DNA of 64,000 bases from Chitinophagaceae bacterium (GTDB taxonomy: Bacteria > Bacteroidota > Bacteroidia > Chitinophagales > Chitinophagaceae): assembly GCA_019638615.1 (NCBI GenBank), contig JAHBTL010000010.1, forward strand, positions 62,001 through 126,000. The letters are read 5' to 3'. The notes beneath the pieces are model-generated. The model was not told the DNA's origin. It worked only from the letters and a program-made list of their open reading frames with translations, and searched no databases. This document shows positions 1 to 31,920 of the stretch, piece after piece. How positions within the stretch are numbered: position 1 is the first letter of the stretch; each line of letters opens with the position of its first letter. The translations under genes and the position numbers were made by a program.

Positions 1-26
1 AATTACGAATGCTTTTCTGATCATAA

Positions 27-953
27 TTATTTCATCTGTTTTTCTTTGAATTCCCGTGCCAACTGACCGGCAGTTATAAAGCGCCCCCCGCGATCAAGCA
101 ATAAACCGCATAACGCGTCCAGCCCGGATATCGCTTTGTCGCCACAATTTTCTACGATGAAAGGCAATGGAGTAACCGAGCACTCACCAAAATCGAGAGC
201 GCCCTGGGGCATAGGATAAAACTCCCAGGGATGAAAATAAAAACACAATACCGGCCTTTCCCCTTTATTCCGCACATAACGCAAAAAACCCTCTGCCTTT
301 TCCATTACCGCGCCGGAAGATTTTGTTCGGAATAAAGGCCATTGATCGCGATCCCGCTGAAATGGATCTTTGCTTTCCATTTCCAGGTCGCAGAAGTTGG
401 GAATCTCTACAATATTCATTGTCCCCTTCTTTGTCCAGTCCTCATTGGAAGGATGATAAGGAACAAATGGCTCTCCATAAAAATATAAAGGAAGTGAGGC
501 ATCAGATATATAGCCTAAAGACTCCAGCACATTTACCACCTGCGTGCTACCCCATAAACGGGGACAACGAAAACTTACAGGTTGCTCGCCTGTGATGTCA
601 GAAATGATCTTAGTCGCATCCTTTAGCCTTCCTTCCACTTCATAGGGCAGTATAGGCCAATTGTTTGGCAACGGGAAGATTGGATCTCCAAGCGTTTCGT
701 GTAGTAACCCGTGACAGCCTGTTTCATGACCGGCTTGTTTCACTTTCAATACCCATTCAGGATTATGCATCGCCGCGTGACCAGTCCAGTAAAAAGTAGC
801 TCCGAGATTGTATTTTTTCAAGATCTCCAGGATAGGGTCGGTTCCTTTCTGAACGCCGTCATAGTACGTGGTATAAGATCCGATGTCTGTTTCCATATCG
901 AAACCAAGCACCACATCAAATGATGTTTCGTTTTCTTCTTGTAGTGTATGCAC
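27..953 (-). CDS. NodB-type polysaccharide deacetylase family protein
   Basis: Predicted metal-dependent C-N hydrolase of the polysaccharide deacetylase (NodB) fold, 308 residues. The first motif is FDMETD near residues 18-23, where D19 would be the catalytic base. The metal-binding H-x3-H is HGLLH at 81-85, the third motif is FRCPR, and a late FHPWE supplies the usual histidine. There is no signal peptide or membrane segment, so the protein is probably cytosolic, unlike cell-wall deacetylases. This fits the PuuE-like branch that acts on small molecules. The start is GTG at 953; no ATG lies in frame before residue 20. It sits 9 bp after the M24 gene and is the last gene of the minus-strand sugar locus. 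Family is confident; substrate is unknown. Confidence 0.85.
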   Translation of the reverse strand: MHTLQEENETSFDVVLGFDMETDIGSYTTYYDGVQKGTDPILEILKKYNLGATFYWTGHAAMHNPEWVLKVKQAGHETGCHGLLHETLGDPIFPLPNNWPILPYEVEGRLKDATKIISDITGEQPVSFRCPRLWGSTQVVNVLESLGYISDASLPLYFYGEPFVPYHPSNEDWTKKGTMNIVEIPNFCDLEMESKDPFQRDRDQWPLFRTKSSGAVMEKAEGFLRYVRNKGERPVLCFYFHPWEFYPMPQGALDFGECSVTPLPFIVENCGDKAISGLDALCGLLLDRGGRFITAGQLAREFKEKQMK

Positions 954-962
954 GACTAAAAT

Positions 963-2132
963 TTAATCGTTGAGAAAATAAGCATCCATGTACGGACTGA
1001 GCGGAACGATGCCATTGTCGTTTACTTCATAACCCGTTTCAATTCTTAAACCGTGAAATTCGGGATGCCCAAAAAAACTGATGTCCACACATATCATCAT
1101 TCCGGGTTCCAGCACATCCTTGCTGTGTGGTCCGAAAAAAGGAGATTCGGCTTCGTGTAAACCAATGGTATGCACAAACGGACATACCAGGTATTGTGAG
1201 AGTTGTTGTTCTTCGAAATAAGCGCGCGCAGGGGCATCCAGTTCTTTTCCTGTTTTTCCGATCTTTAAGCCTTCCCGGGTTCTCTTAAATGCCTCCTTCA
1301 GGTGATTCACTGCTATTTGCTGCCTATCCGTATACTTTCCTGAAACCGGGAATACATCTCCCACCACCCCCGCATATCCGTTCACTTTGGGAGAGATGCC
1401 GATCATCACGAGCTCCCCGTCTTCCAATAATTTTGAACTGGCCGTAGGAACCACGGCGTTAGAGCGCGCGCCGCTGCCAACAATCGTTCCAAATCCAAAG
1501 CCGCTGGCGCTCCTGCTTCTTACAGCATACTCGCCTGCAGCCGCCACTTCAATTTCGGATACTCCTTTGGTCGTTTTTGCTTTCATCGCGTCATACGCGG
1601 CATCTGCCAGTTTAAAGGCAGCCCTTATTTGCTCTCTTTCCCATTCCGACTTTATATATCGCAGCCGGACATATGCATCGGTAATATCCACCAGCTCAAC
1701 CCCGCTGAAGCCTTCCAAGATTTGCTGGTAACCTGCCGCGGGCATTCGTCCCGCACCTACCAGCCCAACGCGTTTGATATTACCCAGCCTGCCGGTCAAC
1801 TCTTCAAATAATTTTTTAAAATCAATGATAGTGGCATTGGGATATTCCTCATCAGGTACCATAAAAACGGTAAAATTCCTCGTCTCGGTGATCATGCTGT
1901 CCAGTTTGGCGAATGGCTCGCTTTCCGGTCCTCCCAGTATCATGGGTTCTCCCTGCCTGGGTACGAGTACGGCCCCGCTTTCAAACTGGGGGCACCAGCC
2001 CGTCAAATACCAACCGTTCCCGATATTGAATTCATCGTAATACACCAATGCAATATCCAAATTGTTCGCAGCTAATATCTCCTGCACTTTGCGGATCCTG
2101 CGTTCTGATTCTGCTTTGATTAAATAAGCCAT
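963..2132 (-). CDS. M24 (Xaa-Pro peptidase/creatinase-like) protein with an incomplete metal site
   Basis: A 389-residue pita-bread fold protein: N-terminal creatinase_N-like domain (about 1-150) and C-terminal M24 domain (about 160-385). No signal peptide is seen. The five metal ligands of true M24 peptidases (D, D, H, E, E) are only partly kept. H321 and E365 remain, but the first Asp aligns with G245, the second with V256 (an Asp lies three residues later at 259), and the first Glu aligns with D350. This resembles creatinase, which uses the same fold without metals, more than a prolidase. It is followed after 9 bp by the deacetylase, with which it is probably co-translated. A role in C-N bond cleavage of a small molecule is inference. 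Confidence 0.8.
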   Translation of the reverse strand: MAYLIKAESERRIRKVQEILAANNLDIALVYYDEFNIGNGWYLTGWCPQFESGAVLVPRQGEPMILGGPESEPFAKLDSMITETRNFTVFMVPDEEYPNATIIDFKKLFEELTGRLGNIKRVGLVGAGRMPAAGYQQILEGFSGVELVDITDAYVRLRYIKSEWEREQIRAAFKLADAAYDAMKAKTTKGVSEIEVAAAGEYAVRSRSASGFGFGTIVGSGARSNAVVPTASSKLLEDGELVMIGISPKVNGYAGVVGDVFPVSGKYTDRQQIAVNHLKEAFKRTREGLKIGKTGKELDAPARAYFEEQQLSQYLVCPFVHTIGLHEAESPFFGPHSKDVLEPGMMICVDISFFGHPEFHGLRIETGYEVNDNGIVPLSPYMDAYFLND

Positions 2133-2176: not shown

Positions 2177-5113
2177 CTATTTTTTATTTAAAATTTCTGA
2201 GAGAGCCTTCCCTTTACTAATAACTGTTACATTCACTCTTGGCTTAATATCTTTTCTTCCTCCGCAAGAAAAAGAAACGCTATTTTCACCGGTTAATAAC
2301 GCCGGAGCAGTTCCCGCTGGTTTCACCTCTTTTATAAATCCACCTTTAGAGTCGTATAACTTGCAATCTGCTACCGAATTAAATTCCAAGTACATTCCGG
2401 ACTCGATGGTAACCGGAAATATGATTTTTTTACCGTTGACTGTTACTACGGGATTTTCGATCTTATTTGACACAAGCGGCAGCGCCTTTACCGGCGAAAT
2501 AATACAGTCAACTTCTTTACCTTCCGGGAGATTATTATACCATAACTGGAGTTTATCTACTTTATCGTACTGAACAGAATGCAGATAAGATTTATATACA
2601 AACAAATCTTTCACTTTTGTGTCCCTTATGATCTCAGAACCCGGCCATAAATAGTTGGTGAATTCAGAAGACTCAAGCTCCACCAATTCGAAATATTTCC
2701 ATCCTTTAAAATCTACTTTGATATAATGGTCACCGCGAACGCCTGCTGAAAGATGCTCCGGGGTTTCCAGACGGAGATTTAGCAGTTGACCGTTGCCATC
2801 GCCTTTTACCCATACTCCCAAACCCTTATTTTTTTCCAGGTTCGCCCATGGCTCAAATTTCTTTTCCAGCTTCAACCAGGAACCTTTCCGGGGAGACAGT
2901 CCCGCACTGTAGGCTGTGAATGAAGCAAGCTTTCCGGGTCGTTCTTTATCACTTACAGCGATGTCGATCGATCCAATTACACCCTTTGCTGTGCGTTTGT
3001 CTCCGAATTCATTGGGATCAGTAAATGCAGCAACCGTTATAGCAGCAGGATCGTCATAAGATACGACGGACATCTGTGCTTGAATACGCACTTTTAATGG
3101 CTGGGCAGCATACTCATTCTGTACTTTCCATTTGCGGGAATCTTCATTCCCGCTAAAAAGATGTTTATGATAGGTAACAGGCTTGAAATTCCATCGCCCG
3201 TTATCCTGCTTAAACAAGCTGTATTCCTTGCCCGGCTCCCTGAGCAGCCGCTTTACTCCCTCGCTGAAATATTGCTGTTGCCTTAGTGTTTCGTATTGCT
3301 TGATAATGGCATTCAGGCGTTTGAAAGAAGGGTTTTCCTTTATGTCCTTTTTTTGGTAACCATTGAACATGGAAAGTCCTGCGTTATTGCCGATCATTTT
3401 ACAACCCAGGTATTCAATATCATCGTCAAATAAAAATTCTGTATTGGGCGGATCCCAGGTGAAATGATGCCACCATCCCAAATGAAGAGGCAACAATAGT
3501 CCGCCATTCGTTAACGGTGCATAGCGATTGAATTGAGGAGTATGCCCCCGCCAGTATCCGTGATCTTCTTCTTCCGACTTGAGTGATGAAACATGAATAT
3601 CAACAAATTTTTTATAACCCCGCCTTGGAACATCCCATGCCTGCCAGCGCGACCGGTAATGCCACCAGAAATGCGACATCGCACTCATCTCCATACCCAC
3701 AGGTTTCTTTAGCCTGCTGGCAACCGCAAAAAGAAATTTAGTACTGTAATACCAATAGTTTTCCATACCGTCCAGGATATCGCTTCCGTCAATCGCGTCA
3801 AAATAAATCCCGTCAAACCCGCAATCATTAACTATATCTGCTGTTCGCTTTGCTACTTCATCAAACAATTTTGTCTCAGGCCCGGGAACAAATCTGCCAA
3901 ACAATTCCTTTAAATGATCTGCAGCCTGCCCTTTTTCGTGACCGGAGGCTTTTGTACCATTGACGCCCCGCTTACAACCTGTAAATTTGTAAGGAATGGT
4001 TTTGGATACGCCGCTAAACTCTATTAATTCATTGCCTATTCTTAAGATTAAACTATTAGGGAAATGGAAACCGGTAAATAATGAAATATCTGCTGTGGAC
4101 TCATTTACAACAATTTCATCACCGGAAATACTCAAGGGCTCGGCAAGTGTAAACGTTCTGAACGAAGCAAGATCAGGATGAGGAACCGGTGTTACTAACG
4201 AAGATTGTTTGTCAATGAAAAAAGCATAGGTATGAAAGATGGATGAAATGCCACCCTGGTGAAGCTTATCGTTGAGTCTTTTGAAACTACTCCACCCGTC
4301 AGGCCACTTTTCTTTATTCAATTCAAAACTTCCGAAAAGAAAAAAGTCAGTATTTCCGCCATGATGGTCAATCTGATTAAAGCCTACACTTTTACAATAC
4401 CCAACCCACTCATCAGCATTCTTTTCTGTAAGTGTCCCGAAATTCATCAGGTAAGAACCATATCCTTCCTTCGAAAGCTGGGCCCATGCACCTCCTGCAG
4501 TAGAAGCTGGGATATCTTTTGCATTCGATATAACGTTTCTGATTGCTGCGAGAATATCTGGTTGAGGTATACCGATCACGGCAATCCGGGCGCCCGCCAT
4601 TCCGAAACGGCTATGTGCCCGGGCATGCAGATAATTTTGCAGCGCAGGTAATTGCTCTACTTCTGTTTTAATATTTAGCGCCAAAGCGCATGCTGCGAAT
4701 GGTTCGCTCGGTAATCGTTGCAGGTCAAGCGGTATGTCCAGGAAAACAAGCGATTCAACATTTCCTTTCACCTCCGCTATCTCCCAAAATATAGCATCAT
4801 TGTCACTATGTACTTTTAAGGAAACGCTTACCGAGAAAGGAGCGAAATCAAGTTTTAAATATCCCGATGTGTTATACTGCACTTTACTAACAGGATGTTT
4901 CTTTCCATTCAAAACAATACTTGCACAATAGGAAACATCGGATTGTGATAAATAATTCTTGCCGCTTGCCTTATCAACAAATGCCAGGTTTTTGCCATTA
5001 TCCTCTATGGAATATCGATAATGTTGATTTTCTAATACAATTTCGCCGGCAACGACAAGATCCGCTCCACAACTACCCAACAGTAGCAGACAAAATAATT
5101 TTATCAGCTTCAT
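2177..5113 (-). CDS. Large secreted glycoside-hydrolase-like protein (copy B of tandem pair)
   Basis: A 978-residue exported protein with an N-terminal signal sequence (about 1-22; cysteine 15 could make it a lipoprotein). The first ~200 residues look like a beta-sandwich. From about 210 there is a TIM-barrel-like region: KEGYGSYLMNFG, a GFNQIDHHGG strand, then FDGIYFDAIDG with D439/D442, and GMEMS with E475. These suggest an aspartate nucleophile, as in retaining clan GH-D or GH31-type enzymes, but I cannot place it in a named family. Between barrel strands, about residues 320-400, lies a separate beta-rich module with ELIEFSGV and CKRGVNGT. The C-terminal third has GLGVWVKGDGNGQ, a jelly-roll or CBM-like signature. 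It is a paralogue of the next gene upstream. Function as a glycosidase is inference. Confidence 0.7.
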   Translation of the reverse strand: MKLIKLFCLLLLGSCGADLVVAGEIVLENQHYRYSIEDNGKNLAFVDKASGKNYLSQSDVSYCASIVLNGKKHPVSKVQYNTSGYLKLDFAPFSVSVSLKVHSDNDAIFWEIAEVKGNVESLVFLDIPLDLQRLPSEPFAACALALNIKTEVEQLPALQNYLHARAHSRFGMAGARIAVIGIPQPDILAAIRNVISNAKDIPASTAGGAWAQLSKEGYGSYLMNFGTLTEKNADEWVGYCKSVGFNQIDHHGGNTDFFLFGSFELNKEKWPDGWSSFKRLNDKLHQGGISSIFHTYAFFIDKQSSLVTPVPHPDLASFRTFTLAEPLSISGDEIVVNESTADISLFTGFHFPNSLILRIGNELIEFSGVSKTIPYKFTGCKRGVNGTKASGHEKGQAADHLKELFGRFVPGPETKLFDEVAKRTADIVNDCGFDGIYFDAIDGSDILDGMENYWYYSTKFLFAVASRLKKPVGMEMSAMSHFWWHYRSRWQAWDVPRRGYKKFVDIHVSSLKSEEEDHGYWRGHTPQFNRYAPLTNGGLLLPLHLGWWHHFTWDPPNTEFLFDDDIEYLGCKMIGNNAGLSMFNGYQKKDIKENPSFKRLNAIIKQYETLRQQQYFSEGVKRLLREPGKEYSLFKQDNGRWNFKPVTYHKHLFSGNEDSRKWKVQNEYAAQPLKVRIQAQMSVVSYDDPAAITVAAFTDPNEFGDKRTAKGVIGSIDIAVSDKERPGKLASFTAYSAGLSPRKGSWLKLEKKFEPWANLEKNKGLGVWVKGDGNGQLLNLRLETPEHLSAGVRGDHYIKVDFKGWKYFELVELESSEFTNYLWPGSEIIRDTKVKDLFVYKSYLHSVQYDKVDKLQLWYNNLPEGKEVDCIISPVKALPLVSNKIENPVVTVNGKKIIFPVTIESGMYLEFNSVADCKLYDSKGGFIKEVKPAGTAPALLTGENSVSFSCGGRKDIKPRVNVTVISKGKALSEILNKK

Positions 5114-5280
5114 GAACAGAGATTATTGTTTTTGAAATATTGAAGTAGCACGCTTTGAAATAAACCACAACCATTGGGTATATACGGCCAGGATGCCATC
5201 AACTATTCGGTTTTTCTTATCCGCTCAGCCTGAGATAGTTAATGTCAAACTTTAGCTTTCCTTACTCGCTATCAACAATA

Positions 5281-8262
5281 TTATTTTTGATTCTTTTGCT
5301 TATTCCTTGTATTTTTTAAAGGAAGTCCTTCTCCAATAACGGTGACCTGCACACGAGGAGACACATTTTCATTACTCTCACAATTAAATTCAATTTCATT
5401 GTCTCCTGCATTCAGTATAGGAATATTGCCTTTGATCTTTATGTCACTGATCAGCTCTCCTTTTGCACCGTATAGTTTGCAATCATTCTCTGAGAAGAAT
5501 TCGAGATACATACCCGGCTTCATCGTAACCGGAAATACAACTGTCTTATCTCCGATCCTCACTGAAGGATTTGTTACTGTTGCTTCAACAAGCGGCAGGG
5601 CTTTGACCGGACCGATTATCGTCCGCACCTCCTTTCCTTTTGGCAAATTGTTATACCAGAGCTGGAGTGATTCAATCTTATCGAACTCAATTGTGTGCCT
5701 GTATGAATCATAAACATAGAAATGAGAATCATTCGGCCATATGTAGTCACTTATTTTTGATGACTCTATTTCAACAAGCTCGAAATATTTCCACCCAACA
5801 AAATCTATTTTTATAAATCTGTCCCCATGTGCGCCATGTGAAATATTAACAGGACTTCTGAGACTAAGATTGAGCAGTTGACCATTGCCATCACCTTTAA
5901 TCCATACTCCAAGACCCTTATTATTTTTGAGCGATAGGAGTTGCTCATACTTTTTCTCCGCATTGATAAATGCCGCTTCGGAAGGTGTGCCGGCTGAGTT
6001 AATGGCAACAAAAGCTCCCGTTTTCTCGTTGTCGGTTGTCATTTCATCTGACGATACGATCTTTGCAGAAACCCCATCTGAAGCATTCTCAATAATAAAG
6101 GCCCGGCTGTCCGAAAAATCAGTGAGTACAATTGCTGAAGGATCGTTATAAGGCTTAACCGACATCAGCGGTTCAATCCTGAGCTTCAAAGGCTGTGCTT
6201 CAAAATCATTATGAGAAATCCACTGCCTTGATTCATATGCCTTGCCCTGCGCCTTATGTTTTGTATACGTTCTGGGTTTGAAGGTCCACTCTCCTTCACT
6301 GCCGCGGATCAGGGTAAATTCTTTTCCTGGCTGCTGAAGCATTTCCAGCACATTTTTGTCAAAATACTTTTGATGTCTCAGCATTTCATACTGGCGGATG
6401 ATACCAGCAGCCCGTTTAAATAAAGGTTTATCATCAAGCGTTTTTTTGTCAACACCTCCGAGCTGCGAGTAGCCGGCGTTGTTTGCAAGCATTTTTGTAG
6501 CCAGATATTCTACATCGTCAGGAAAAGTAGGCTCTATTTGAGGAGGGTCCCAGGTTTGATTTCCCCACCAGCCTAAATGCAACGGTAACATGGTCTGACT
6601 CTCCTTAGCTGCCGCATATTTGTTGATCTGTGGTGTATTACCTCTCCAAAGTCCATGTTCCCATTCGTTGGATTGTATATTCTTGGGTAAAAAAAGCGAG
6701 GGGTTTTTAACAGAGGCGAGGTGAATATCGATAAAGCGTTTATATCCACGAACCGCCCTGTCCCAGGCCTGATACCTCGATCGGTAGTGCCACCAGTGGT
6801 GCGCCATAGAGCTCATTTCCATTCCCACGCTTTTCTTCAAGCGCTTTGCTATCTCGAATATGAACTTAGTGCCATAATACCAGAAATTCTGCTCTCCCCC
6901 CAGTACTGCAGCGCCATCTATTGCGTCGAGATAAATTCCATCAAAATCGCAATGATTTACAATTTCGGCATGCTTTCGGGCTATCGTCTGAAATAGCTCT
7001 GAATCAGGATCGGGCACAAATCTCCCAAAACGTTCACTGAGGTGATAAGCAGTAATTCCTGCTTTGTGTGAGCTGACACTGGTTCCGTTTGCACCTCTTT
7101 TTAAACCCCTGAATTTAAATGGTGCACTCTTTGTCACTTCACTAAACTCAATGAGTTCATCATCTAATCTTAACGTAATACTGTTTTCCGTATGAAAGCC
7201 GGTAATGGTGGACACATGTGCCGTTGATTCATTAACAGTGATTTCAGTTGAAGAGGCTGTCAACGGTTCAGCAAGGGTAAAGGTCTCAACATATCCCAGG
7301 TCCTTATGAGGGACTGGCGTAACGTAGTTGGTAGTTTTATCAATAAAAAAGGCATAGGTATGAAAGATATGAGAAATGCCGTGCTGGTGTAACCTGGCAT
7401 TGATCCTTTTAAAAGAATCCCAACCATCAGGCCATTTTTCTTTGTTTAGCTCAAGTGTACCAAAATCGAAAAAACCGCCTCCTCCGTGGCTGTCTATCTG
7501 ATTAAAGCCAAGTGATTTACAGGTTTCGATCCATTCATCAACTGTGGTTTCGGTGAGCGTACCAAAATTCATCAGGTAGGAACCATACCCTTCTTTGGCA
7601 TCTTTTGCCCACGCTCCACCTTTGTCGGAAAATGGAATGTCTTTAGCTTTCGAAATCACCTTGCGTATAGTTGTGAGTATTTCCTTTTGCGGCACTCCCA
7701 GGATAGCAGTTGCTGCTCCTTTTATTCCAAACCTTTTGTAACAGGTAGCCCACAGATGGGGCTGTAATGCCGGAAGCCTACGTACATGCGTATACAGGTT
7801 CATTGACAGCGCACAGGTGGCGAAGGGTTCATAAGGCATTGCCTCTAATTTCAGGGGGATATTAAGGAAATTCAGCGATTCGGGTTCTCCCGTAACATCG
7901 GCCACGCTCAGAATCAAATAATCAGGATATATACGCACATTGATTTTCACAATAACATTTTCTCCGAAATCGAGCGTTAACACATCCTTGTTCAATACCA
8001 CCGAGTTAACATTGCGCAGCGTCCCGTTAAGCATAATACTTGCGCAATAAGATGCGGTGTCAGTGTATAAATAATCGGTCTTTTTGATTTTATCCAGGAA
8101 ATGCAAATTTTTCCCATCATCAGAGATCCCGTAAGAGAAAAAAGTATTCTGAAGAACCACCAATGCCTTTGATTGCAGCGAAAACAGAACAATAATAAAA
8201 GCAACGAGTACGTTTCGACTCATTCGTTTGCTTCGCACCTTAATATAATTTTTGCCTGTCAT
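5281..8262 (-). CDS. Large secreted glycoside-hydrolase-like protein (copy A of tandem pair)
   Basis: A 993-residue paralogue of the neighbouring 978-residue protein, colinear over its whole length; by eye more than half of the residues match in the barrel block. It keeps the same candidate catalytic positions: FDGIYLDAIDG (D446/D449) and VGMEMS (E482). It also keeps the same inserted module near 327-407 (DELIEFSEV ... LKRGANGT ... SHKAG) and the C-terminal KGLGVWIKGDGNGQ jelly-roll motif. The start may be the ATG at 8262 or the in-frame ATG at 8223, which begins a compact signal peptide (MSRNVLVAFIIVLFSLQSKA). It follows susD after 199 bp that contain a strong inverted repeat. Likely exported to the periplasm or surface. 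Specificity unknown. Confidence 0.7.
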   Translation of the reverse strand: MTGKNYIKVRSKRMSRNVLVAFIIVLFSLQSKALVVLQNTFFSYGISDDGKNLHFLDKIKKTDYLYTDTASYCASIMLNGTLRNVNSVVLNKDVLTLDFGENVIVKINVRIYPDYLILSVADVTGEPESLNFLNIPLKLEAMPYEPFATCALSMNLYTHVRRLPALQPHLWATCYKRFGIKGAATAILGVPQKEILTTIRKVISKAKDIPFSDKGGAWAKDAKEGYGSYLMNFGTLTETTVDEWIETCKSLGFNQIDSHGGGGFFDFGTLELNKEKWPDGWDSFKRINARLHQHGISHIFHTYAFFIDKTTNYVTPVPHKDLGYVETFTLAEPLTASSTEITVNESTAHVSTITGFHTENSITLRLDDELIEFSEVTKSAPFKFRGLKRGANGTSVSSHKAGITAYHLSERFGRFVPDPDSELFQTIARKHAEIVNHCDFDGIYLDAIDGAAVLGGEQNFWYYGTKFIFEIAKRLKKSVGMEMSSMAHHWWHYRSRYQAWDRAVRGYKRFIDIHLASVKNPSLFLPKNIQSNEWEHGLWRGNTPQINKYAAAKESQTMLPLHLGWWGNQTWDPPQIEPTFPDDVEYLATKMLANNAGYSQLGGVDKKTLDDKPLFKRAAGIIRQYEMLRHQKYFDKNVLEMLQQPGKEFTLIRGSEGEWTFKPRTYTKHKAQGKAYESRQWISHNDFEAQPLKLRIEPLMSVKPYNDPSAIVLTDFSDSRAFIIENASDGVSAKIVSSDEMTTDNEKTGAFVAINSAGTPSEAAFINAEKKYEQLLSLKNNKGLGVWIKGDGNGQLLNLSLRSPVNISHGAHGDRFIKIDFVGWKYFELVEIESSKISDYIWPNDSHFYVYDSYRHTIEFDKIESLQLWYNNLPKGKEVRTIIGPVKALPLVEATVTNPSVRIGDKTVVFPVTMKPGMYLEFFSENDCKLYGAKGELISDIKIKGNIPILNAGDNEIEFNCESNENVSPRVQVTVIGEGLPLKNTRNKQKNQK

Positions 8263-8461: not shown

Positions 8462-10000
8462 TCAGTATCCCGGGTTTTGTTTTAGATTTTTATTCAATTG
8501 CAAATCCCTGTAAGGGATCGGGTATATCAATCTGTTTTCAGTCACATTAAATGAATTGGCAGGAAGAAAGGGATATTCCTGTTTCATCCGTTGCCCGTAA
8601 GCACTCATCACTTCAATGGCTTTACCCGTTCTAATGAGATCAGTCCAGCGATGGTTCTCAAACGCCAGTTCGTGACGCCTTTCATTCAACACGTTTTCTA
8701 ATGTAGCCACATCCAGATCATCAAGCCCGGCTCTCGTTCTTACCTTATTCAAGTAGGGAAGCGCAAGATCATTTTTACCTTGCTGAACTAAGTTTTCTGC
8801 CATGAGCAACAGTGCATCAGCGAACCGGAATACCGGCCAATTTTCGCCGGTATTGTTGGGTAGGGCATACGGTCCATGAACGTATTTTGAAACATAGGGA
8901 AAGTAAAATTTACCAGGCTCAGGAACATAGCCACGCGGATCTCTTATTTCCAGAATAATAATGGGATCAAAACCCGGATTTCCCCCTGCCAATGTACCCT
9001 CGGCAATTTGTATTGATTCATTCAAACGCAAATCACCTGCTTCATAAGAGTCTATTAATTCCTGATTAGGTACATTCCATCCACCCAGGCTTACATTGTT
9101 GGCCCTTAACCCTGTTATCGGCCAGGTGTCTTCCGTTTTAGGCAGCATGTAATAAATAAAATCGCTCTGCTGTCCGTCAGGACCTTCTCTAAACTGAACT
9201 TCAAATATTGATTCCTGATGGTTTTTATTATTAGGATCAAAAACATCCCCATAATCTTCCAAAAGTTCATAGTTCATATTCATTATATCCCCTAATTCAC
9301 TTTCAGCAAGCACGTACTCCCTTTGTGGCTTTGACATATACGCTTTGGCTAATAACATCTTGGCTGCTCCTTTGGTCGCTCTTCCTGTTTGCGGAAAAGT
9401 AGCGGCTACGGGTAAATTAGGTATAGCTCCATTTAAGTCCTTTATTACTTGAGCGTATACTTCCTCAATCGTGGAATTGGACACATAAGACGACTGTTCA
9501 TCAACAACTTCTTCAAGATATAAGGGTACTCCACCATAATGAGTCACCAAATCAAAATAATAGAATGCTCTTAAAAACAGGGTTTCCCCTGCAACCTGGT
9601 TTTTAACTTCTTCGGAAATTTCTGCTGTTTCAAGACGCGACAAAATAATATTAGCCCTGGAAATACCCCTGTAATCAGCGTAGTACCTGTTATTTACCGC
9701 TGTTGTCTGGGATTGATCAGTCCACTGTATAATGTCTTCCACCCAGTTGGCAGGCCCTCTGTCTGGTGCATAGTAACGAAAAAAGGTATTATCTGACCTC
9801 ATTTCATCCATATATATCCCCGGGTGAACAAGGCTCCGCAAAGGCTCATATGCAGCAACCAATGCTAAATTGAAATGAGATTCTGTTTTATAAAATGTAC
9901 TGCTGGTAATTGCTGTTTCAGGAGCAACATCAAGGAAATCTTTACTGCAAGAGCTAAATGATAAGATTCCAACCAGCCAAAAAATTAAATTCTTTTTCAT
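8462..10000 (-). CDS. susD: SusD/RagB family nutrient-binding outer-membrane lipoprotein
   Basis: Surface glycan-binding lipoprotein that forms the lid of the SusC transporter. The ATG at 10000 gives 512 residues and a clean lipoprotein signal: MKKN, a hydrophobic stretch, then SFSSC with the lipidated cysteine at 18 followed by SKDFLD, consistent with surface export. The family features follow in order: TPR-like helices with FLRAFYYFDLVTHYGGVPL (typical SusD core), then the C-terminal RxHELAFENHRWTDLIRTG segment and NKNLKQNPGY at the end, the usual SusD terminus. An in-frame TTG two codons upstream is less likely as start. It lies 11 bp after susC and is surely co-transcribed with it. Ligand unknown. 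Confidence 0.96.
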   Translation of the reverse strand: MKKNLIFWLVGILSFSSCSKDFLDVAPETAITSSTFYKTESHFNLALVAAYEPLRSLVHPGIYMDEMRSDNTFFRYYAPDRGPANWVEDIIQWTDQSQTTAVNNRYYADYRGISRANIILSRLETAEISEEVKNQVAGETLFLRAFYYFDLVTHYGGVPLYLEEVVDEQSSYVSNSTIEEVYAQVIKDLNGAIPNLPVAATFPQTGRATKGAAKMLLAKAYMSKPQREYVLAESELGDIMNMNYELLEDYGDVFDPNNKNHQESIFEVQFREGPDGQQSDFIYYMLPKTEDTWPITGLRANNVSLGGWNVPNQELIDSYEAGDLRLNESIQIAEGTLAGGNPGFDPIIILEIRDPRGYVPEPGKFYFPYVSKYVHGPYALPNNTGENWPVFRFADALLLMAENLVQQGKNDLALPYLNKVRTRAGLDDLDVATLENVLNERRHELAFENHRWTDLIRTGKAIEVMSAYGQRMKQEYPFLPANSFNVTENRLIYPIPYRDLQLNKNLKQNPGY

Positions 10001-10011
10001 GACCAAATTTT

Positions 10012-13000
10012 TTAAAAGGTTACGTCTAATCCTATGGTAAATGTTCTGGGGATCGGGTATGGAGCAAAATCGCGCCCTTCATTGAGCCCGTTCAGACCGT
10101 ATTGGCTGGCATCCGGATTGGGTCCTGGATATTTTGTTAGAATAAATGCATTTTGAGCACTGATATAAACCCTCGCCTGTTTATAAATTTTCTTTACCGG
10201 CTGTGGTAAAGTGTAACCAAGGCTGATATTCTTACCGGCCAGATAAGATCCATCAAAAATATGCCTGGTATTATTAAAACGATGCAAGGGATTAGAATTG
10301 CTTCTAGGCAGATCGCCTTTACCCGGATTGTCAACTGATCTCCATCTATCCAGCGCAGCGGGTCTTACGTTAAACACTCCATCAATATTTTCGATGGAGA
10401 GCAAATCTCCTTTGAAAACATCTCCACCTACTCTACCAATTAAGGTAATGTTCAGATCAAAATTCTTGTACGAAAAGTCATTAATAAAACCATACACAAA
10501 TGTAGGGTTGGGATTTCCTATGAACGTTTTATCATTAATAGGATCAATTAATCCATCCGGAACTCCATCCGGACCGCTGATATCCTTAAGCCTTACGGAG
10601 CCAACATCAGATCCTCCATATACTGTTATATGAGGTCCTTTTGCAAGTTCAGCATCATTCATAAAAACACCTTCGTATACATATCCATAAAACTGCCCTA
10701 TGGGATGGCCTACTTCTGTACGATTAAAATCAGAATTCTCCTGTACTCCTCCTATGGGAACATTTTCTGTTCCGAGTTTCATAACCATATTACGATCAAT
10801 ACCTACCGTGATATTGGTATTCCATTTGAATTGGTTTATAAAGTTCTTTGTCTGCAAACCAAACTCATGTCCCCAAAACTTAAATTCGCCAATATTAGAT
10901 TGAATACTGCTGAAACCCGAAGCAAGCGGTATATTCACAGCATAGAGTAAACCGTTAGTATTTTTCCTGTAATAATCGTAGACAAGTAACACACGGTCAT
11001 CAAAAAACCCCAGATCCACACCAAAATCATATTGTACAGTCGTCTCCCATGTTAATGCTGAGTTTCCTAAATTGGATAAAGCTTTTCCTGGAGTAACGGT
11101 ATTGCTAAACACATAATTCACGTTATTCACTGAACTGATGTGAGAATAGTTTCCGATGTTGTAATTCCCCACTTTACCATAGCTTGCCCTGAGTTTAAGA
11201 AGACTCACTTTATCTTTAATGCTCTCCATAAAGCTCTCCTCCGATACAACCCATCCAAGTGAAGCGGACGGGAATATACCATATTTTTTATTGCTGCCAA
11301 ATCTCGAGGCCCCATCTCTTCTTACCGAAAATGATGCGAGATATTTGCTTTTGTAATTGTAGTTCAGTCGACCCAAAGCAGATGATATGGAAAACTCGGA
11401 TACTGATACATTACCAATCCTGTTGGTTGCTGCGTTGATCCAGGGAATTTCGTCATCGGGAAATTGAGTACCGCTGATTGAACTTCCTTCACTTCTTACA
11501 CTTTGTGCGGAATAACCAACTAATACATCGAGATTGTGTACGCCATTAAAACTTTTGTTGTAGTTCAATGTATTTTCAACCTGCCAGTTTGAGTAATTAG
11601 ATGTTGAATAAGATCCCCCTGCAGGATTTGGAGGAGACTGGAACATAGCTCCCTGGGCTGTTGACGGACTCCAATATCTATTCTTTGATCCTCCAAGATC
11701 TATATCGGCCCGTAACTTATATTTTAATCCCTCAATAATTTTATACTCTCCATAAACATTGCCTATAACATTCATTTGTTGCAAAGGGTTTTCTCTTTCC
11801 GTTAAAACTCTGTACCAATTAGGATTAGGAAACATTCCAGGAGAAGAAAAACCTACCGGCAGGCTGCCGTCGGGATTTTTATATTCCAGGGTGGGGTCCA
11901 TGATGTAGGCAGATGAAAGAAAACTCCAATACGCTGGTTCAAAACTTTGATTATCTGAATGTCTGAATGTTGATGCCAGGTTCAATCCAACAGTGAACCG
12001 GTCTGAGACTGTAAATATATTATTGGCTCTGACAGTAACCCTTTGTGCCTGAGTATTGAGAAGGATCCCCTGAGTATTATTATAACTTAGATTAACAACC
12101 GATTTAACTTTTTCCGATCCGCTTGAAAAAGTCAAATTATAATTTTGCAAGTTGGCATTAGGATTTAGCAAAATATCAAACCAATCAGTACCATCATTTG
12201 GTCCATATTGTTCAGGGTTCTGATACCTTTCTGGAACTGCCAGACCCTGATCACTGTACCACTCATTTTTATATTGGGCAAATTGCCGGGCATTCATTAC
12301 ATCTGGTCTGCCTCTTTGCGGAACCTTTTGAATTCCAGTATAAACACTTAATTTAACTTCACTCCGTCCTCTTTTTGCCTGTTTCGTTGTAATAAGAACT
12401 ACCCCATTAGCAGCCCGTGAGCCATATAAAGCCGAGGCAGAAGCATCCTTCAACACAGAAATGTCTTCTATCTCTTCCGGGCTTAAAGCGTCAAGTCCTG
12501 TACTGGAAGGAAACCCATCTATCACAATTAAAGGAGAATTACCTGCATTGATTGAAGCTTGCCCCCGGATCTTGAATGCAATGCCCTGCCCGGGCACACC
12601 TTCAGTCTGATTAATTCTAACACCAGGCAATCTACCCTGCAAACGCTGCCCAAGCTGGGCTATCGGAGCTTTTTCTAAATCTTCAGAACTTACAGAACTG
12701 ATAGCGCCTGTAAGTTCTTTTTTCTTTTGCGTGCCGTACGCAATGACTGTTACCTGGTTCAGCATAGAAATATTTTCTTCAAGAACCAAATCAACAGTTG
12801 TCCGACCATTAACGGGCATTTCTTTAGTAGAAAACCCTACAAAAGAAAATACCAGCGTCCCATTAGAAGGAACATCTATCGAATAATTTCCATTCCCATC
12901 AGTGGAAGTACCTGTAGCGGCACCTTTAACCACAACGCTAACGCCTGCCAAAGGTTCCCCCTGGGCGTTGGTTACTCTCCCTTTCACAATATTGTCAACC

Positions 13001-13419
13001 ATTTCCTCCTTCACTTCACTGGTCAACACTTTTTTTTCAATTACCACTCTTTTGTACAGCATAATCGTTTTATCCTCGATTTTATATGCAAGCGGTTGGT
13101 TTTTGAGCATAACATCAAGGAATTCCGGAAGAGGCATGTTGTAAACAGACAGCGTAACAGGGCTGGCACCATTGAGGTCCGAATTATTGTAAAAAACAAC
13201 ATACCCCGTCTGCTTTTTGATGGCAGTAAAAACTTTTTTCAGTTCTACATTTTTGCCAGATAGTGTAATTGTTTGAGAAATGCCGTTGGCGTAAACGTTT
13301 ACAAAAGCAGCGGTTAAAAGTAAGATCGTTAGCTTCATCACTAACAGGGTTTTGGTAAGATTACGGTCCCTCCACCAAGGAACACAGTAACCATAAACAA
13401 TTTTTTGCATAAATTGCAT
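10012..13419 (-). CDS. susC: SusC/RagA TonB-linked outer-membrane transporter with STN signalling domain
   Basis: A 1135-residue TonB-dependent transporter. Domains in order: a long N-terminal leader with the signal segment MKLTILLLTAAFVNVYA at about 28-44; an STN (secretin/TonB short N-terminal) domain at about 50-125 (TLSGKNVELKKVF, QTGYVVFYN); a CarboxypepD_reg-like beta-sandwich at about 146-220 (GRVTNAQGEPLAGVSVVVKG); a plug at about 225-350 with the SusC signature IRGQASINAGNSPLIVIDG and DASASALYGSRAANGV; then the beta-barrel, ending in an aromatic residue. The STN domain is the part that contacts FecR in trans-envelope signalling, in agreement with the sigma/FecR genes just upstream. 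It pairs with susD 11 bp downstream. Confidence 0.97.
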   Translation of the reverse strand: MQFMQKIVYGYCVPWWRDRNLTKTLLVMKLTILLLTAAFVNVYANGISQTITLSGKNVELKKVFTAIKKQTGYVVFYNNSDLNGASPVTLSVYNMPLPEFLDVMLKNQPLAYKIEDKTIMLYKRVVIEKKVLTSEVKEEMVDNIVKGRVTNAQGEPLAGVSVVVKGAATGTSTDGNGNYSIDVPSNGTLVFSFVGFSTKEMPVNGRTTVDLVLEENISMLNQVTVIAYGTQKKKELTGAISSVSSEDLEKAPIAQLGQRLQGRLPGVRINQTEGVPGQGIAFKIRGQASINAGNSPLIVIDGFPSSTGLDALSPEEIEDISVLKDASASALYGSRAANGVVLITTKQAKRGRSEVKLSVYTGIQKVPQRGRPDVMNARQFAQYKNEWYSDQGLAVPERYQNPEQYGPNDGTDWFDILLNPNANLQNYNLTFSSGSEKVKSVVNLSYNNTQGILLNTQAQRVTVRANNIFTVSDRFTVGLNLASTFRHSDNQSFEPAYWSFLSSAYIMDPTLEYKNPDGSLPVGFSSPGMFPNPNWYRVLTERENPLQQMNVIGNVYGEYKIIEGLKYKLRADIDLGGSKNRYWSPSTAQGAMFQSPPNPAGGSYSTSNYSNWQVENTLNYNKSFNGVHNLDVLVGYSAQSVRSEGSSISGTQFPDDEIPWINAATNRIGNVSVSEFSISSALGRLNYNYKSKYLASFSVRRDGASRFGSNKKYGIFPSASLGWVVSEESFMESIKDKVSLLKLRASYGKVGNYNIGNYSHISSVNNVNYVFSNTVTPGKALSNLGNSALTWETTVQYDFGVDLGFFDDRVLLVYDYYRKNTNGLLYAVNIPLASGFSSIQSNIGEFKFWGHEFGLQTKNFINQFKWNTNITVGIDRNMVMKLGTENVPIGGVQENSDFNRTEVGHPIGQFYGYVYEGVFMNDAELAKGPHITVYGGSDVGSVRLKDISGPDGVPDGLIDPINDKTFIGNPNPTFVYGFINDFSYKNFDLNITLIGRVGGDVFKGDLLSIENIDGVFNVRPAALDRWRSVDNPGKGDLPRSNSNPLHRFNNTRHIFDGSYLAGKNISLGYTLPQPVKKIYKQARVYISAQNAFILTKYPGPNPDASQYGLNGLNEGRDFAPYPIPRTFTIGLDVTF

Positions 13420-13724: not shown

Positions 13725-14939
13725 CTATGGCATCACGATCAACCGGTTCCCTTCTTCAATCCGGAAATGAACACCCGCACGTTCAAGCCCGCTTAAAAGC
13801 CCTGAAAGACTGACATTCCTGCTCATCTCTCCACCGAATGTCATCTGGGGTATCTCTTTTTCGTACACCACTTCAATATCGTACCAACGGCTTAACTGGC
13901 GCATTACCTCCTGAAGAGAAGCATTTTCGAAATTAAACAGTTCATTTTTCCAGGCCATTACCTGGTCTGTATTCACAGATTCATTCAGTTGCAATTTGCC
14001 ACTGTCCGTTATCTCTGCCTGCTGACCTGGCTTTAAAACTATTTGCTCGTGCACTTTGCTGGCGATTAAACTGGAGGCTTTCACACTTCCTTCCAATAAA
14101 GTAGTTTTTATATTTTGCTCGTCTTTGTAAGCATTGATATTAAAATGAGTGCCCAGCACCTCTACCTCCCCCCTGTCATCTACATTAATTTTAAAAGGCT
14201 TGTTTTCCAGCCTGGCTACTTCAAAATAGGCTTCACCAGAAACCTTTACAGTCCTCGAATCGCCGGAAAAATATGCAGGATATGTAATGGAACTCGCTGC
14301 ATTCAGCCACACCCTGGTCCCGTCTGGCAATACTAACCGGAATTGTCTTCCCCGGGGAGTCGTCATGGTATTGTATACTACTTCTCCCCTGGTTTTGCTG
14401 TCGGTGTCATATACCAATTGTCCTTTGATTAATTTTACTTTGGTACCAGGCTGTGTTGCCACAATACCGTCGGCAAGACTGTCTAAAACTACTTCGCTCC
14501 CGTCACCCAGTTTCAATATAGCTCCGTTTTTGCCTGGAGGAAGATCAATAGACTGCCGGGCTACTGTTTCAATTTCCTGTTTTTTATTGTTCAACAGCCA
14601 CCACAATGTTCCACTCAATAGCATAAACAGGATGGCCGCCGCCCAACGCCAGCTTCCTACAAAAATTCTCTTACTGGCTACCATCGGATGCTGAGCAAGA
14701 TGATTTCTCTCATGCTGCATCTTTATCTTCTCCGATACCCCGCTATTGATCGCTATTCTTCCGGCTTCCGGTTCATTGAATAAATAAGCGTCATTCATGA
14801 ATGTCAGCAAAAGTTCTTCATCCAGGTAAACCAGGTTTTCAGGATCATCGAGCGCGTCCTTTAACTGCTTCCAGCCTTCTTTGGATAACGTACCGGCAAC
14901 ATAATTATCTATCAGGTCAGTAAATTTCGATTTATCCAT
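13725..14939 (-). CDS. FecR family anti-sigma factor with DUF4974 domain
   Basis: A 404-residue inner-membrane regulator that holds the ECF sigma factor and receives the signal from the SusC STN domain. The N-terminal cytoplasmic part (about 1-90, FTDLIDNYVAGTLSKEGWKQL) is the sigma-binding region. A single membrane segment lies near 93-115 (RWAAAILFMLLSGTLWWLL). The periplasmic FecR domain follows (about 180-285, with TTPRGRQFRLVLPDGTRVWLNAASSI split around the family hallmark LPDGT.VWLN). The C-terminal DUF4974 domain covers about 325-404. The gene starts 88 bp after the sigma gene, with which it forms the usual pair. Confidence 0.95.
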   Translation of the reverse strand: MDKSKFTDLIDNYVAGTLSKEGWKQLKDALDDPENLVYLDEELLLTFMNDAYLFNEPEAGRIAINSGVSEKIKMQHERNHLAQHPMVASKRIFVGSWRWAAAILFMLLSGTLWWLLNNKKQEIETVARQSIDLPPGKNGAILKLGDGSEVVLDSLADGIVATQPGTKVKLIKGQLVYDTDSKTRGEVVYNTMTTPRGRQFRLVLPDGTRVWLNAASSITYPAYFSGDSRTVKVSGEAYFEVARLENKPFKINVDDRGEVEVLGTHFNINAYKDEQNIKTTLLEGSVKASSLIASKVHEQIVLKPGQQAEITDSGKLQLNESVNTDQVMAWKNELFNFENASLQEVMRQLSRWYDIEVVYEKEIPQMTFGGEMSRNVSLSGLLSGLERAGVHFRIEEGNRLIVMP

Positions 14940-15027: not shown

Positions 15028-15600
15028 TTATAAAAAACGGCAGAAAAAAATTATAAGAACGGCGCCAAAGTCTGCATTCTTTAAAAAGATGCGAAGAAAA
15101 TTTAAGGCAGCGGTCATGTGAAATTTTACAGTCCGTTTCGTAATTTTCATTTTGCCCGCTATTTCCTCCTGGCTAAGCTGTCCGTTTCTGCTCAGGGTAA
15201 AAACCATTCGCTGCTGCGGGGGCATTTGTTCTATCGCCAAAGCAATATGCTTTTCAAGTTCCTTTGCCTCAAGGGTGTTATCTGGGCGAATAATTTCATG
15301 CAACATATCCTGATCCTGAAGGCTGGTACGTTCCAGCACACGCCTGCGTATAGCAGAAACAAGGTAATTACGACTGACGATAAATAAGTAGGCAGGAAAA
15401 TCTTTTACTTCAACCAGTCGTTCTCTGTTGATCCATATTTTAACAAAAATGTCCTGTACAATCTCCACTGCTTCATCATAAACTTTAACATAGGTAAGAA
15501 CGTGTGAAAACACCCGTCCCCTGTATTGATCCATCAGCGAGGCAAACGCATGTTCATCTCCGGCAGCTATCTTCGCCAGCAGTGCAGTGTCCGTATGCAT
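15028..15600 (-). CDS. ECF-type RNA polymerase sigma-70 factor
   Basis: Extracytoplasmic-function sigma factor of about 190 residues, the Bacteroidota FecI-like type that switches on the adjacent sugar locus. Region 2 is visible as AFASLMDQYRGRVFSHVLTYVK ... EAVEIVQDIFVKIW interrupted by short links, and region 4 as MPPQQRMVFTLSRNGQLSQEEIA followed by a helix-turn-helix (KMKITKRTVKFHM). I chose the ATG at 15600; an in-frame TTG at 15615 would add five residues but gives a less typical N-terminus. It is first in the minus-strand series sigma, fecR, susC, susD. Its own promoter is not evident. Confidence 0.94.
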   Translation of the reverse strand: MHTDTALLAKIAAGDEHAFASLMDQYRGRVFSHVLTYVKVYDEAVEIVQDIFVKIWINRERLVEVKDFPAYLFIVSRNYLVSAIRRRVLERTSLQDQDMLHEIIRPDNTLEAKELEKHIALAIEQMPPQQRMVFTLSRNGQLSQEEIAGKMKITKRTVKFHMTAALNFLRIFLKNADFGAVLIIFFCRFL

Positions 15601-15881
15601 TTCTTTTCTATTCAATCAGGATCGATAATAGTAAAAATAATAAACAAACCTAATGGAAAAAAAACTGCAAAGACAAATCTCGTGAGTAACAAATCGTGTA
15701 TCCGAATAAAATAAAGAATCCTGAATTTCGAACGGGCGCTTTTTCTTTCATCCTTGTTGTTACAAAAGAATTTTTATCCGGTTAAGAATGGATTATTTGT
15801 AAACCTGAATGATCGTGAAGGTTACAAAATCATCAACCACTTGCCCCGTATTCACTGCGATCCCAACCGCCCCGGCTTTCG

Positions 15882-27833: not shown

Positions 27834-29585
27834 ATGAAATACAGACTGATCTTTTTCCTCGTCGCATCGACTTATGTCGCTTCGTCGCAGGACCTGAGCT
27901 ACAGTATACCCGGCAAAAACTTCTTTACAGAAGCTCCCGCCATTGTGCCAACCGATAACAACGTATGGGAAAAGCTGGCACAGCCTGTAACAGTAAGCTT
28001 TGCAAACAGCAACACACGGTATCCTAAACAGCAGGTGCCGGGCATACAGGTACAACAACAATGGATCGCCAGCGGATGGAAGGGCGAAAGGATACATACA
28101 CAATTGCTGGTATGGACCAATCAAACCATACCGGCTTTAACCTATACCATTACCGAACCATCCAGTGCAAAAGGAGAAACCATTCCCGGGTCAGCCATCA
28201 GCGCCGGTTTTGTAAGGTATGTAATCACAGATGAGTTTGCCGGTGGCTGCGGATACCGTAAACCTGCAGATTTCGATTCGTCCCTGTCGCCCGATGCCAT
28301 TGACATCGTTCCTAACATACCTGTTGAAAAAAATACAGTGCAGCCATTGTGGTTAAGCGTACAAATCCCACCTGATATAGCAGCAGGCGTTTACAATGGT
28401 ACTATTACCATCCGCGCCGACCAGTCCTACCAGCTTCCTTTCAGCATACGGGTCATCAACAACACCCTGCCTCCGCCTTCTGCCTGGAGCTTCGACCTGG
28501 ATCTGTGGCAGCACCCTGCCGCTATTGCCAGGGTACATGGGGTGCCGCTATGGAGTGATGAACACTTCAGCCTGATGAAGCCATATTACACCATGCTGGC
28601 AAATGCCGGACAAAAAAATATTACTGCCAGCATCATGGAAGAGCCCTGGGGGCATCAGACTTATGACGACTTTCCTTCCCTCATAAAATGGACGAAAAAG
28701 AAAAATGGCACATGGGTGTATGACTACAGTTTATTTGATAAATACATTTCATTTGTAATGAGCTGTGGCATTACAAAGCGCATCAACTGTTATTCGATGG
28801 TACCCTGGGCCTTATCGTTCCGTTACTACGATGAAGCCACTCAAAAAGATACGGCCCTTAAAGCGGCTGTAGGCTCACCGGAATACAATACGCACTGGAC
28901 GACCATGCTGAAGGATTTTACCAAGCACCTTAAACAAAAAGGATGGTTTGGCATTACCACCATTGCTATGGACGAGCGCCCGATGAAAGACATGCAGGTG
29001 GTAATAAAAATGCTGAAGCAGATCGACCCGCAATGGAAGATAGCCCTTGCAGGGAATTATCACCCCGAAATAGAAAAAGACATTTTTGATTATTGCCTGG
29101 CATCGAATTTTGAATTTGGAGAAGACATTTTAAAACAAAGAATTGCCGCAGGAAAACCAAGTACTTATTATACCTGCTGCACTGAGAATTATCCCAACGG
29201 GTTTACCTTTTCACCTCCAGCCGAACATGTTTGGATAGGCTGGTACGCAGCCGCAAAAGGCTTTACAGGCTATCTCCGCTGGGCGTACAATAGCTGGGTA
29301 GCCGATCCTCTGCGCGATTCAAGATTCCGCTCCTGGCCGGCAGGCGATACTTACCAGGTATACCCGGGTCCCCGCACATCCATTCGCTTTGAAAAGCTGG
29401 TAGAAGGCATACAGGATTTTGAAAAAATAGCTGTCCTCAGAAAATTATGCCGGCAGGCTAACGACCCGCAGGCTTTGAACAGGTTAGAATTGATTCTCAA
29501 ACAATTTGATATCAAAAAGCTGAATGCTGTATCCGCAGAAGAAATGCTCGTGCATATAAAGGATATGCTGAATGAAACATTATAG
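27834..29585 (+). CDS. GH123-like glycoside hydrolase (DUF4091 type)
   Basis: A 583-residue exported protein with signal peptide about 1-18. Residues 20-210 form beta-sandwich modules (LWLSVQIPPDIAAGVYNGTITI is the typical strand pair ahead of the barrel). The (beta/alpha)8 domain runs from about 215 to 500 and contains the adjacent Asp-Glu pair in AMDERPM (D380, E381), the arrangement used by GH123 beta-N-acetylgalactosaminidases for substrate-assisted catalysis. The C-terminal ~85 residues (GPRTSIRFEKLVEGIQDFE, split by turns) are the DUF4091 signature. First gene of a plus-strand carbohydrate cluster. Family assignment is good; the exact sugar released is inferred only. Confidence 0.83.
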   Translation: MKYRLIFFLVASTYVASSQDLSYSIPGKNFFTEAPAIVPTDNNVWEKLAQPVTVSFANSNTRYPKQQVPGIQVQQQWIASGWKGERIHTQLLVWTNQTIPALTYTITEPSSAKGETIPGSAISAGFVRYVITDEFAGGCGYRKPADFDSSLSPDAIDIVPNIPVEKNTVQPLWLSVQIPPDIAAGVYNGTITIRADQSYQLPFSIRVINNTLPPPSAWSFDLDLWQHPAAIARVHGVPLWSDEHFSLMKPYYTMLANAGQKNITASIMEEPWGHQTYDDFPSLIKWTKKKNGTWVYDYSLFDKYISFVMSCGITKRINCYSMVPWALSFRYYDEATQKDTALKAAVGSPEYNTHWTTMLKDFTKHLKQKGWFGITTIAMDERPMKDMQVVIKMLKQIDPQWKIALAGNYHPEIEKDIFDYCLASNFEFGEDILKQRIAAGKPSTYYTCCTENYPNGFTFSPPAEHVWIGWYAAAKGFTGYLRWAYNSWVADPLRDSRFRSWPAGDTYQVYPGPRTSIRFEKLVEGIQDFEKIAVLRKLCRQANDPQALNRLELILKQFDIKKLNAVSAEEMLVHIKDMLNETL

Positions 29586-31919: not shown

Positions 31920-31920
31920 T

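Follow-up and report, generated by a model that had tools for sequence, protein, structure and literature searches.

The window, that is, the whole stretch of DNA analyzed here, comprises 64,000 nucleotides from a Chitinophagaceae bacterium (GenBank assembly GCA_019638615.1, contig JAHBTL010000010.1, positions 62,001 to 126,000 of the forward strand) and sits on contig C2 of a 7.18-Mb host genome. On its minus strand, two genes encoding paralogous proteins of 978 and 993 amino acids (copy 1 and copy 2) follow a susC-susD pair, with 199 bases between susD and copy 2 and 167 bases between copy 2 and copy 1. Their sequences and models suggest that both copies are probably glycoside hydrolases (GHs) of a new family within a known superfamily, that of the α-galactosidases, the family being set apart by comparison with Pfam and NCBIfam only. 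An earlier sequence-only reading had placed two large paralogues directly after susCD, and the open reading frames (ORFs) and the gene order bear this out. The features of the two proteins are as follows.

5281..8262, minus strand: copy 2 gene, 993 amino acids, intact ORF; architecture as in copy 1 by alignment with it (model for residues 30 to 690 only)
2177..5113, minus strand: copy 1 gene, 978 amino acids, intact ORF; N-terminal β-sandwich, barrel with inserted β domain, CBM11-like jelly roll, and C-terminal β domain (AlphaFold model)
4502..5044, minus strand: copy 1 N-terminal β-sandwich, residues 24 to 204 (secondary structure of the model)
3194..4501, minus strand: copy 1 barrel, residues 205 to 640, insert included (model and fold comparison)
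3905..4174, minus strand: copy 1 inserted β domain between strands 3 and 4, residues 314 to 403 (model)
2459..3052, minus strand: copy 1 CBM11-like jelly roll, residues 688 to 885
3797..3799, minus strand: copy 1 D439, proposed nucleophile, ends strand 4 (model, conservation, and profile alignment)
3689..3691, minus strand: copy 1 E475, candidate acid/base, ends strand 5 (model and conservation)
3632..3634, minus strand: copy 1 D494, candidate acid/base in the strand 6 region, low model confidence (models and conservation)
6925..6927, minus strand: copy 2 D446, counterpart of D439 (alignment)
6817..6819, minus strand: copy 2 E482, counterpart of E475 (alignment)
6760..6762, minus strand: copy 2 D501, counterpart of D494 (alignment)

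The two copies share 53% amino acid identity over 969 aligned columns (E = 0). One AlphaFold model was made per copy; that of copy 1 has a mean predicted local distance difference test (pLDDT) score of 81, and that of copy 2 has a mean pLDDT of 86.9 and a predicted template modeling score of 0.87. Both models show a β-sandwich followed by a (β/α)8-type barrel with an inserted β domain, which supports the barrel-like region proposed by the sequence-only reading as one of the glycoside hydrolase type; the FDGIY(F/L)DAIDG and GMEMS motifs on which that reading drew are present in both copies. The proposed jelly-roll C terminus holds for copy 1, where the fold matches a CBM11-like structure; the Pfam CBM_11 scores at the C termini are 19.5 and 21.9 bits, under the cut-off of 27. 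Secretion is suggested by features seen by eye, a lipobox-like LGSC in copy 1 and a hydrophobic N terminus in copy 2. Copy 1 lacks about 11 loop residues following the D494 region (window about 3575 to 3580, after residue 512); this loop is present in copy 2 and in the other proteins of their clade (clade A, below), except a distant second member in locus L029.

No family was found over the barrel of either copy in an hmmscan search against Pfam, in which CBM_11 alone was listed up to an E value of 1; GH101 (PF12905), GH129 (PF11308), GH36 Melibiase (PF02065), GH31 (PF01055), GH27 (PF16499), and GH97 (PF10566) were all unlisted, as was GH13, to which the fold is nevertheless alike. A search of NCBIfam likewise returned no family for copy 1 or copy 2. 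The Pfam library used detects GH20, GH78, GH123, GH29, and GH32 in neighboring or related loci, and its silence on both copies is therefore informative for that library. The statement that the proteins match no known GH family thus stands for the two catalogues compared, and the Pfam part of the profile search that had been named as a check on it yielded no GH family, only CBM_11 below its cut-off. When sequences of GH101 and GH129 were sought for profile comparison, neither Pfam family passed its cut-off in any of 198 genomes of the phylum; GH101 gave weaker matches in 7 of the 198, GH129 in none, and 14 control genomes had neither. New GH families are found regularly. General literature searches recognized no published description of this nameless family or of its architecture, which does not prove its absence from print. 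GH195 was considered as the family and rejected; part of PMC13063451 describes GH195 as distantly related to GH99.

Relatives were collected at several depths. With copy 1 as the query, matches were found in 13 of 395 sampled genomes of the phylum, the genome under study included. A profile of 25 rows matched 8 of 395 genomes of the class, 2 of them via the inserted domain only, and 32 of 294 genomes of the taxonomic family, several of them weakly; five of these 32 match only a stretch of 57 to 63 positions (283 to 346) where GH36 proteins match too, and one (G792) matches by a short piece only. A scan of public genomes yielded eight close loci, including those of a Tannerella sp., two Arenibacter species, and Parapedobacter soli, and two further distant members (L003 and L004, 31% identity) lie in the host genome itself. 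For conservation counts and the tree, 60 rows were used, namely, ORFs matching the family profile that exceed 600 amino acids and cover the model, with identical copies taken once; fragments, the stop-broken copy L010, and the domain-only matches L036 and L037 were excluded. Since L040 is a cut-off copy of L035, the 60 rows represent 59 genes, and alignment A2 omits L040. L010, a distant member, carries a single TAG stop within its reading frame; in L036 and L037, the family profile matches the inserted domain alone, the barrel being unmatched. The inserted domain of L003, L004, and L008 shows a weak likeness, below the cut-off, to Rcc01698_C (PF23666, E of 0.0069 to 0.14).

By structure comparison and by profile-profile alignment, the barrel falls in the α-galactosidase superfamily (GH36, GH27, and GH31, near GH101 and GH13) but in none of the families tested. 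Searches of PDB sequences with single proteins gave one chance-level match (E of 0.51) and, in a second search, none. Profiles of 25, 59, and 15 rows all retrieved the same Flavonifractor plautii galactosaminidase (E of 1.6e-4, 2.0e-4, and 2.5e-5), the match spanning about 50 residues around strand 2. The closest solved structure by sequence is thus an α-galactosaminidase (entries 8x1b, 9awt, and 9ayu), which we take to belong to GH36. By structure, 13 of the best 14 listed Foldseek matches are titled GH101, EngBF, or endo-α-N-acetylgalactosaminidase. In profile-profile alignments with the insert cut out, the family scored 54.8 against GH36, 43.2 against GH27, 36.9 against GH97, and 34.0 against GH31, the inputs being drawn from genomes of the phylum (4 of 25 loci for GH36, 16 of 25 for GH27, 25 of 25 for GH97, and 20 of 20 for GH31). 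The best of 60 column shuffles reached 25.2, 24.7, 22.2, and 23.7, respectively, and reversed columns reached 16 to 18; reference pairs within the superfamily scored 86.9 (GH27-GH36), 62.7 (GH31-GH36), 40.9 (GH97-GH27), and 31.4 (GH31-GH27). With the insert kept, the wide family profile scored 36 to 46, aligned over the first half of the barrel. Single members scored 45.3, 53.9, 24.4, and 32.0 for GH36 (4 of 4) and 32.1, 30.1, 30.1, and 32.1 for GH27 (4 of 16). Eight decoy profiles, each built from 1 to 4 rows, served as controls; none of seven exceeded 22.0, and the eighth, a GH123_N-type protein, reached 33.6. This protein (L042:13782-16418, minus strand, PF19543) carries a GMYIDDA motif, seen by eye, and may itself belong near the same superfamily.

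D439 ends strand 4 in the models and, together with W484, is invariant in 60 of 60 relatives, as are E362, P374, R382, and G383 of the insert. In profile alignments, it coincides with the Asp of KWD, KYD, and WNDMNE in GH36, GH27, and GH31, respectively, the established nucleophiles of these families. A barrel with a nucleophile Asp ending strand 4, the mark of the superfamily, is found here by position only, in both models and in 60 of 60 rows. Passages of PMC1249566 describe the GH27 and GH31 nucleophile as ending strand 4 and the proton donor as ending strand 6, and part of PMC10949244 describes an Asp nucleophile and a Glu acid/base for GH101; PDB entry titles name the GH101 mutants D764N and E796Q.

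The second catalytic acid is less clear-cut. The sequence-only reading had paired D439 with E475 and had taken the acidic residues kept by both copies as an argument for catalysis. D439/D446 and E475/E482 are indeed shared, and D439 occupies the superfamily's nucleophile position, but the two carry unequal weight, since most relatives lack E475: it is kept in 15 of 60, whereas position 494 is acidic in 46 of 60 (E in 30 rows and D in 16), the remaining 14 rows having G. The structure prediction and fold search named as a check support the GH-type barrel and put D439 at the end of strand 4 and E475 at the end of strand 5. The count at position 475 varies by alignment: Glu is invariant in A3 (15 rows), and in the L-INS-i alignment, one clade A row (L029:3348-6533) is out of register by a single residue and so scored as non-Glu. 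The 15-row alignment (clade A plus L035, L086, and L087) shows no variation at the positions matching D439, E475, and D494. By position, the Asp on strand 4 and the Glu on strand 5 fit the GH101 layout in both models, but most of the 60 rows lack this Glu. Models and conservation suggest that clade A has three carboxylates, on strand 4, on strand 5, and probably on strand 6; the wider conservation favors D494 as the acid/base, and strict conservation within clade A keeps E475 a candidate. The strand 6 placement of D494, which would correspond to the usual acid/base position of clan GH-D, is weak because the pLDDT of its block is about 50 for model 1 and 56 for model 2, in which D494 follows a very short strand.

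In a tree of the 60 rows, drawn with a midpoint root for display only, the two window proteins belong to clade A, a group of 12 rows that L035, L040, L086, and L087 (three genes) join against the other 44 rows. Copy 2 groups with single copies from other genomes, and copy 1 branches outside the other ten members of its subclade (Shimodaira-Hasegawa-like approximate likelihood ratio support of 82). A recent duplication was rejected on this branching and on the 53% identity of the copies. No close pair like copies 1 and 2 was seen in the other nine clade A loci within their fetched extent, two of which (L022 and L025) are cut by contig ends; L029 carries a more distant second member. A phage or plasmid origin was rejected as well: one scan of plasmids gave no match, and one scan of viral contigs gave 11 pattern matches, none of which was confirmed as a relative.

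By Pfam and gene order, the adjoining susC and susD homologs make this a SusCD-type polysaccharide utilization locus, which reads on the minus strand as sigma factor, FecR, SusC, SusD, copy 2, copy 1, and then an M24 peptidase and a deacetylase. Its neighboring genes are as follows.

15028..15615, minus strand: extracytoplasmic function (ECF)-type sigma factor (ORF named by eye; phmmer matches in L044 and L023)
13725..14939, minus strand: FecR-type anti-sigma factor (ORF named by eye; phmmer matches in L044 and L023)
10012..13419, minus strand: SusC-type TonB-dependent receptor with STN domain (Pfam Plug, CarbopepD_reg_2, and STN)
8462..10006, minus strand: SusD (Pfam SusD_RagB)
963..2132, minus strand: M24 (creatinase/prolidase-type) metallopeptidase, leader not seen by eye (Pfam Peptidase_M24)
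27..953, minus strand: polysaccharide deacetylase (NodB-type) protein, leader not seen by eye (Pfam Polysacc_deac_1)
1..24, minus strand: L-rhamnose mutarotase (RhaM), 5' end only, the gene running beyond the window (L041:19505-19825, PF05336)

Beyond the window edge, the RhaM gene is followed by DUF6786 and RhaT genes (Pfam). The order SusC, SusD, family gene, M24, deacetylase, RhaM, DUF6786, and RhaT is identical in the window genome, in L044 (another family of the same order), and in L023 (Tannerella), three genomes of different taxonomic families, and sigma-like and FecR-like genes accompany all three clusters, the L044 sigma gene lying on the opposite strand. Beside RhaT in the host genome lies a 512-amino-acid protein (L041:15905-17443, minus strand) with a weak GHL6 match below the cut-off. 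The rhamnose-type cluster is present in 3 of 10 clade A loci, and an amide-cleaving-type enzyme (M24, deacetylase, AstE/AspA, or M81) is present in 6 of 10. L029 shares M24 and has extra M81, ASRT, and two transporter-like genes named by eye. L026 and L028 share another cluster, with GH20 directly upstream together with GDSL esterases, BNR, AstE/AspA, SDR, PALP, and DHDPS, a cluster rich in amide and amine chemistry. A GH78 rhamnosidase gene lies directly upstream of the family gene in L022 and a GH78-type gene directly downstream of the distant host member L004, and two genes with α-L-fucosidase matches lie upstream of L003 on the same strand. The two Arenibacter loci have none of the window's neighbor genes. 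The linkage to RhaM and RhaT suggests a 6-deoxy-L-sugar target, and these neighbor counts are suggestive only.

Two observations concern other parts of the window. A 730-amino-acid protein (29727-31919, plus strand) matching no Pfam family at E values up to 1e-5 is flanked by a GH123 gene (27834-29585) and a GH32 gene (31912-33369), and a BT_1020-like β-propeller protein with a sialidase-like CBM is encoded at 45184-47049 (plus strand).

From the computed fold class, nucleophile position, and gene order, we infer an activity, a stereochemistry, a substrate, and a role for each neighbor. Sequence and models make it fairly likely, at somewhat better than even confidence, that the pair are exported multidomain glycoside hydrolases of the α-galactosidase superfamily, in a family absent from Pfam and NCBIfam, and that they cleave an axial 6-deoxy-L-hexose bond. 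SusD and the CBM11-like domain would bind the glycan, which would enter the barrel, where D439 (D446 in copy 2) would attack the anomeric carbon as the nucleophile. Either D494/D501 in the strand 6 region (GH36-like) or E475/E482 on strand 5 (GH101/GH13-like) would serve as the acid/base, and the outcome would be the retaining hydrolysis of an axial (α-type) glycosidic bond, the likely bond being an axial glycoside of a 6-deoxy-L-hexose such as L-rhamnose. α-L-Rhamnosides fit the requirement for an axial bond; according to part of PMC1249566, the superfamily acts only on substrates with such a bond. The products would pass through SusC, RhaT would take up the sugar, RhaM would mutarotate it, and the leaderless M24 and deacetylase proteins may remove an amide-linked substituent in the cytosol; the gene content suggests these import and cytosolic steps. 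A bolder version, which we regard as speculative, is a new family with a fixed strand 4 Asp whose acid/base would have changed place, lying on strand 6 in GH36-like clades and on strand 5 in the clade of the window proteins (GH101/GH13-like), the latter clade being dedicated to an N-acylated 6-deoxy-L-sugar glycan with M24 and the deacetylase finishing in the cytosol.

Several results weigh against the assignment of the pair as superfamily hydrolases acting on a 6-deoxy-L-hexose bond. The Foldseek template modeling scores are low, 0.22 to 0.47 among the matches listed. A profile of clade A only shows no superfamily relation (scores of 23 to 33, partly aligned outside the barrel), so that the signal needs the wide family, and alignments reaching strand 4 also need the insert removed. 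The GH123_N-type decoy matches individual GH27 members (30.1 to 32.1) in score, and the GH31 members compared one by one (4 of 20) reach only 17.0, 22.3, 19.6, and 26.3. D494 lies in a low-confidence block of both models, and the two Arenibacter loci, L026, L028, and L029 all lack the rhamnose-type cluster within their extent.

With the enzyme class unchanged, the target might instead be an amino-sugar glycan, containing GalNAc or a different N-acylated hexosamine, like the substrates of GH101, GH129, and the F. plautii galactosaminidase. The nearest solved sequence, the GH101-type titles of the leading Foldseek matches, the GH20 hexosaminidase gene directly upstream in L026 and L028, and the amide-cleaving-type neighbors in 6 of 10 loci all point that way, but the most repeated cluster (3 of 10 loci) has RhaM and RhaT, and none of its three loci showed a GH20 match; we consider this substrate possible, though clearly not probable. 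That the family is already numbered in CAZy and merely not taken up by Pfam and NCBIfam seems unlikely. In favor of this reading, families in the GH190s are recent and the comparison covered those two catalogues; against it, no close relative appeared among PDB sequences, and the general literature searches showed no paper on this architecture. It is improbable that the proteins are glycan-binding or nonhydrolytic relatives (a surface glycan-binding protein or a lyase-type enzyme) retaining the barrel fold. In Bacteroidota, the slot after susD is often occupied by surface glycan-binding proteins, and a strongly conserved block besides D439 sits in the inserted domain, both of which count for such a role, but the invariance of D439 and W484, the D or E at position 494 in most rows, and the alignment of strand 4 with catalytic aspartates argue against it.

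If active, the pair would represent an enzyme family without a Pfam or NCBIfam entry, found across several Bacteroidota clades, and a defined cluster (SusCD, family enzyme, M24, deacetylase, RhaM, DUF6786, and RhaT) with a testable substrate. The family could be a second case, beside GH97, of related enzymes with the second catalytic acid on different strands and could bear on how GH101/GH13-type and GH36-type active sites relate.

Compared with known systems, the two proteins are best called a family-level variation, new, inside a known superfamily. They resemble GH36, as represented by the F. plautii galactosaminidase, in the N-terminal β-sandwich and barrel, the profile match around strand 2, and the position of D439 on the nucleophile, but differ in lacking a Pfam Melibiase match and in having the β insert between strands 3 and 4, the CBM11-like domain, and the clade's extra E475. 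GH101 is the best Foldseek match and likewise has an Asp and a Glu ending strands 4 and 5, with a spacing of 36 here versus 32 there (D764-E796), but PF12905 finds no match, E475 is lost in most relatives, and GH101 is not among the 50 VIA structure matches listed for either model. The GH101-like pair would be D439 and E475, and the GH36-like pair would be D439 and D494. GH27 and GH31 share the barrel fold and the nucleophile position, but structural alignments show about 10% identity, and neither family is matched; the jelly roll differs from CBM11 in missing its Pfam cut-off. GH97, rich in Bacteroidota and of the same superfamily, has subfamilies that differ in the acids of strands 4 and 5 (passages of PMC1249566 and PMC2670981) and holds both inverting and retaining members (part of PMC2670981). 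It is therefore a precedent for divergence of catalytic acids within one family, from which the window's family differs in having no PF10566 match and a strand 4 Asp that is constant in 60 rows.

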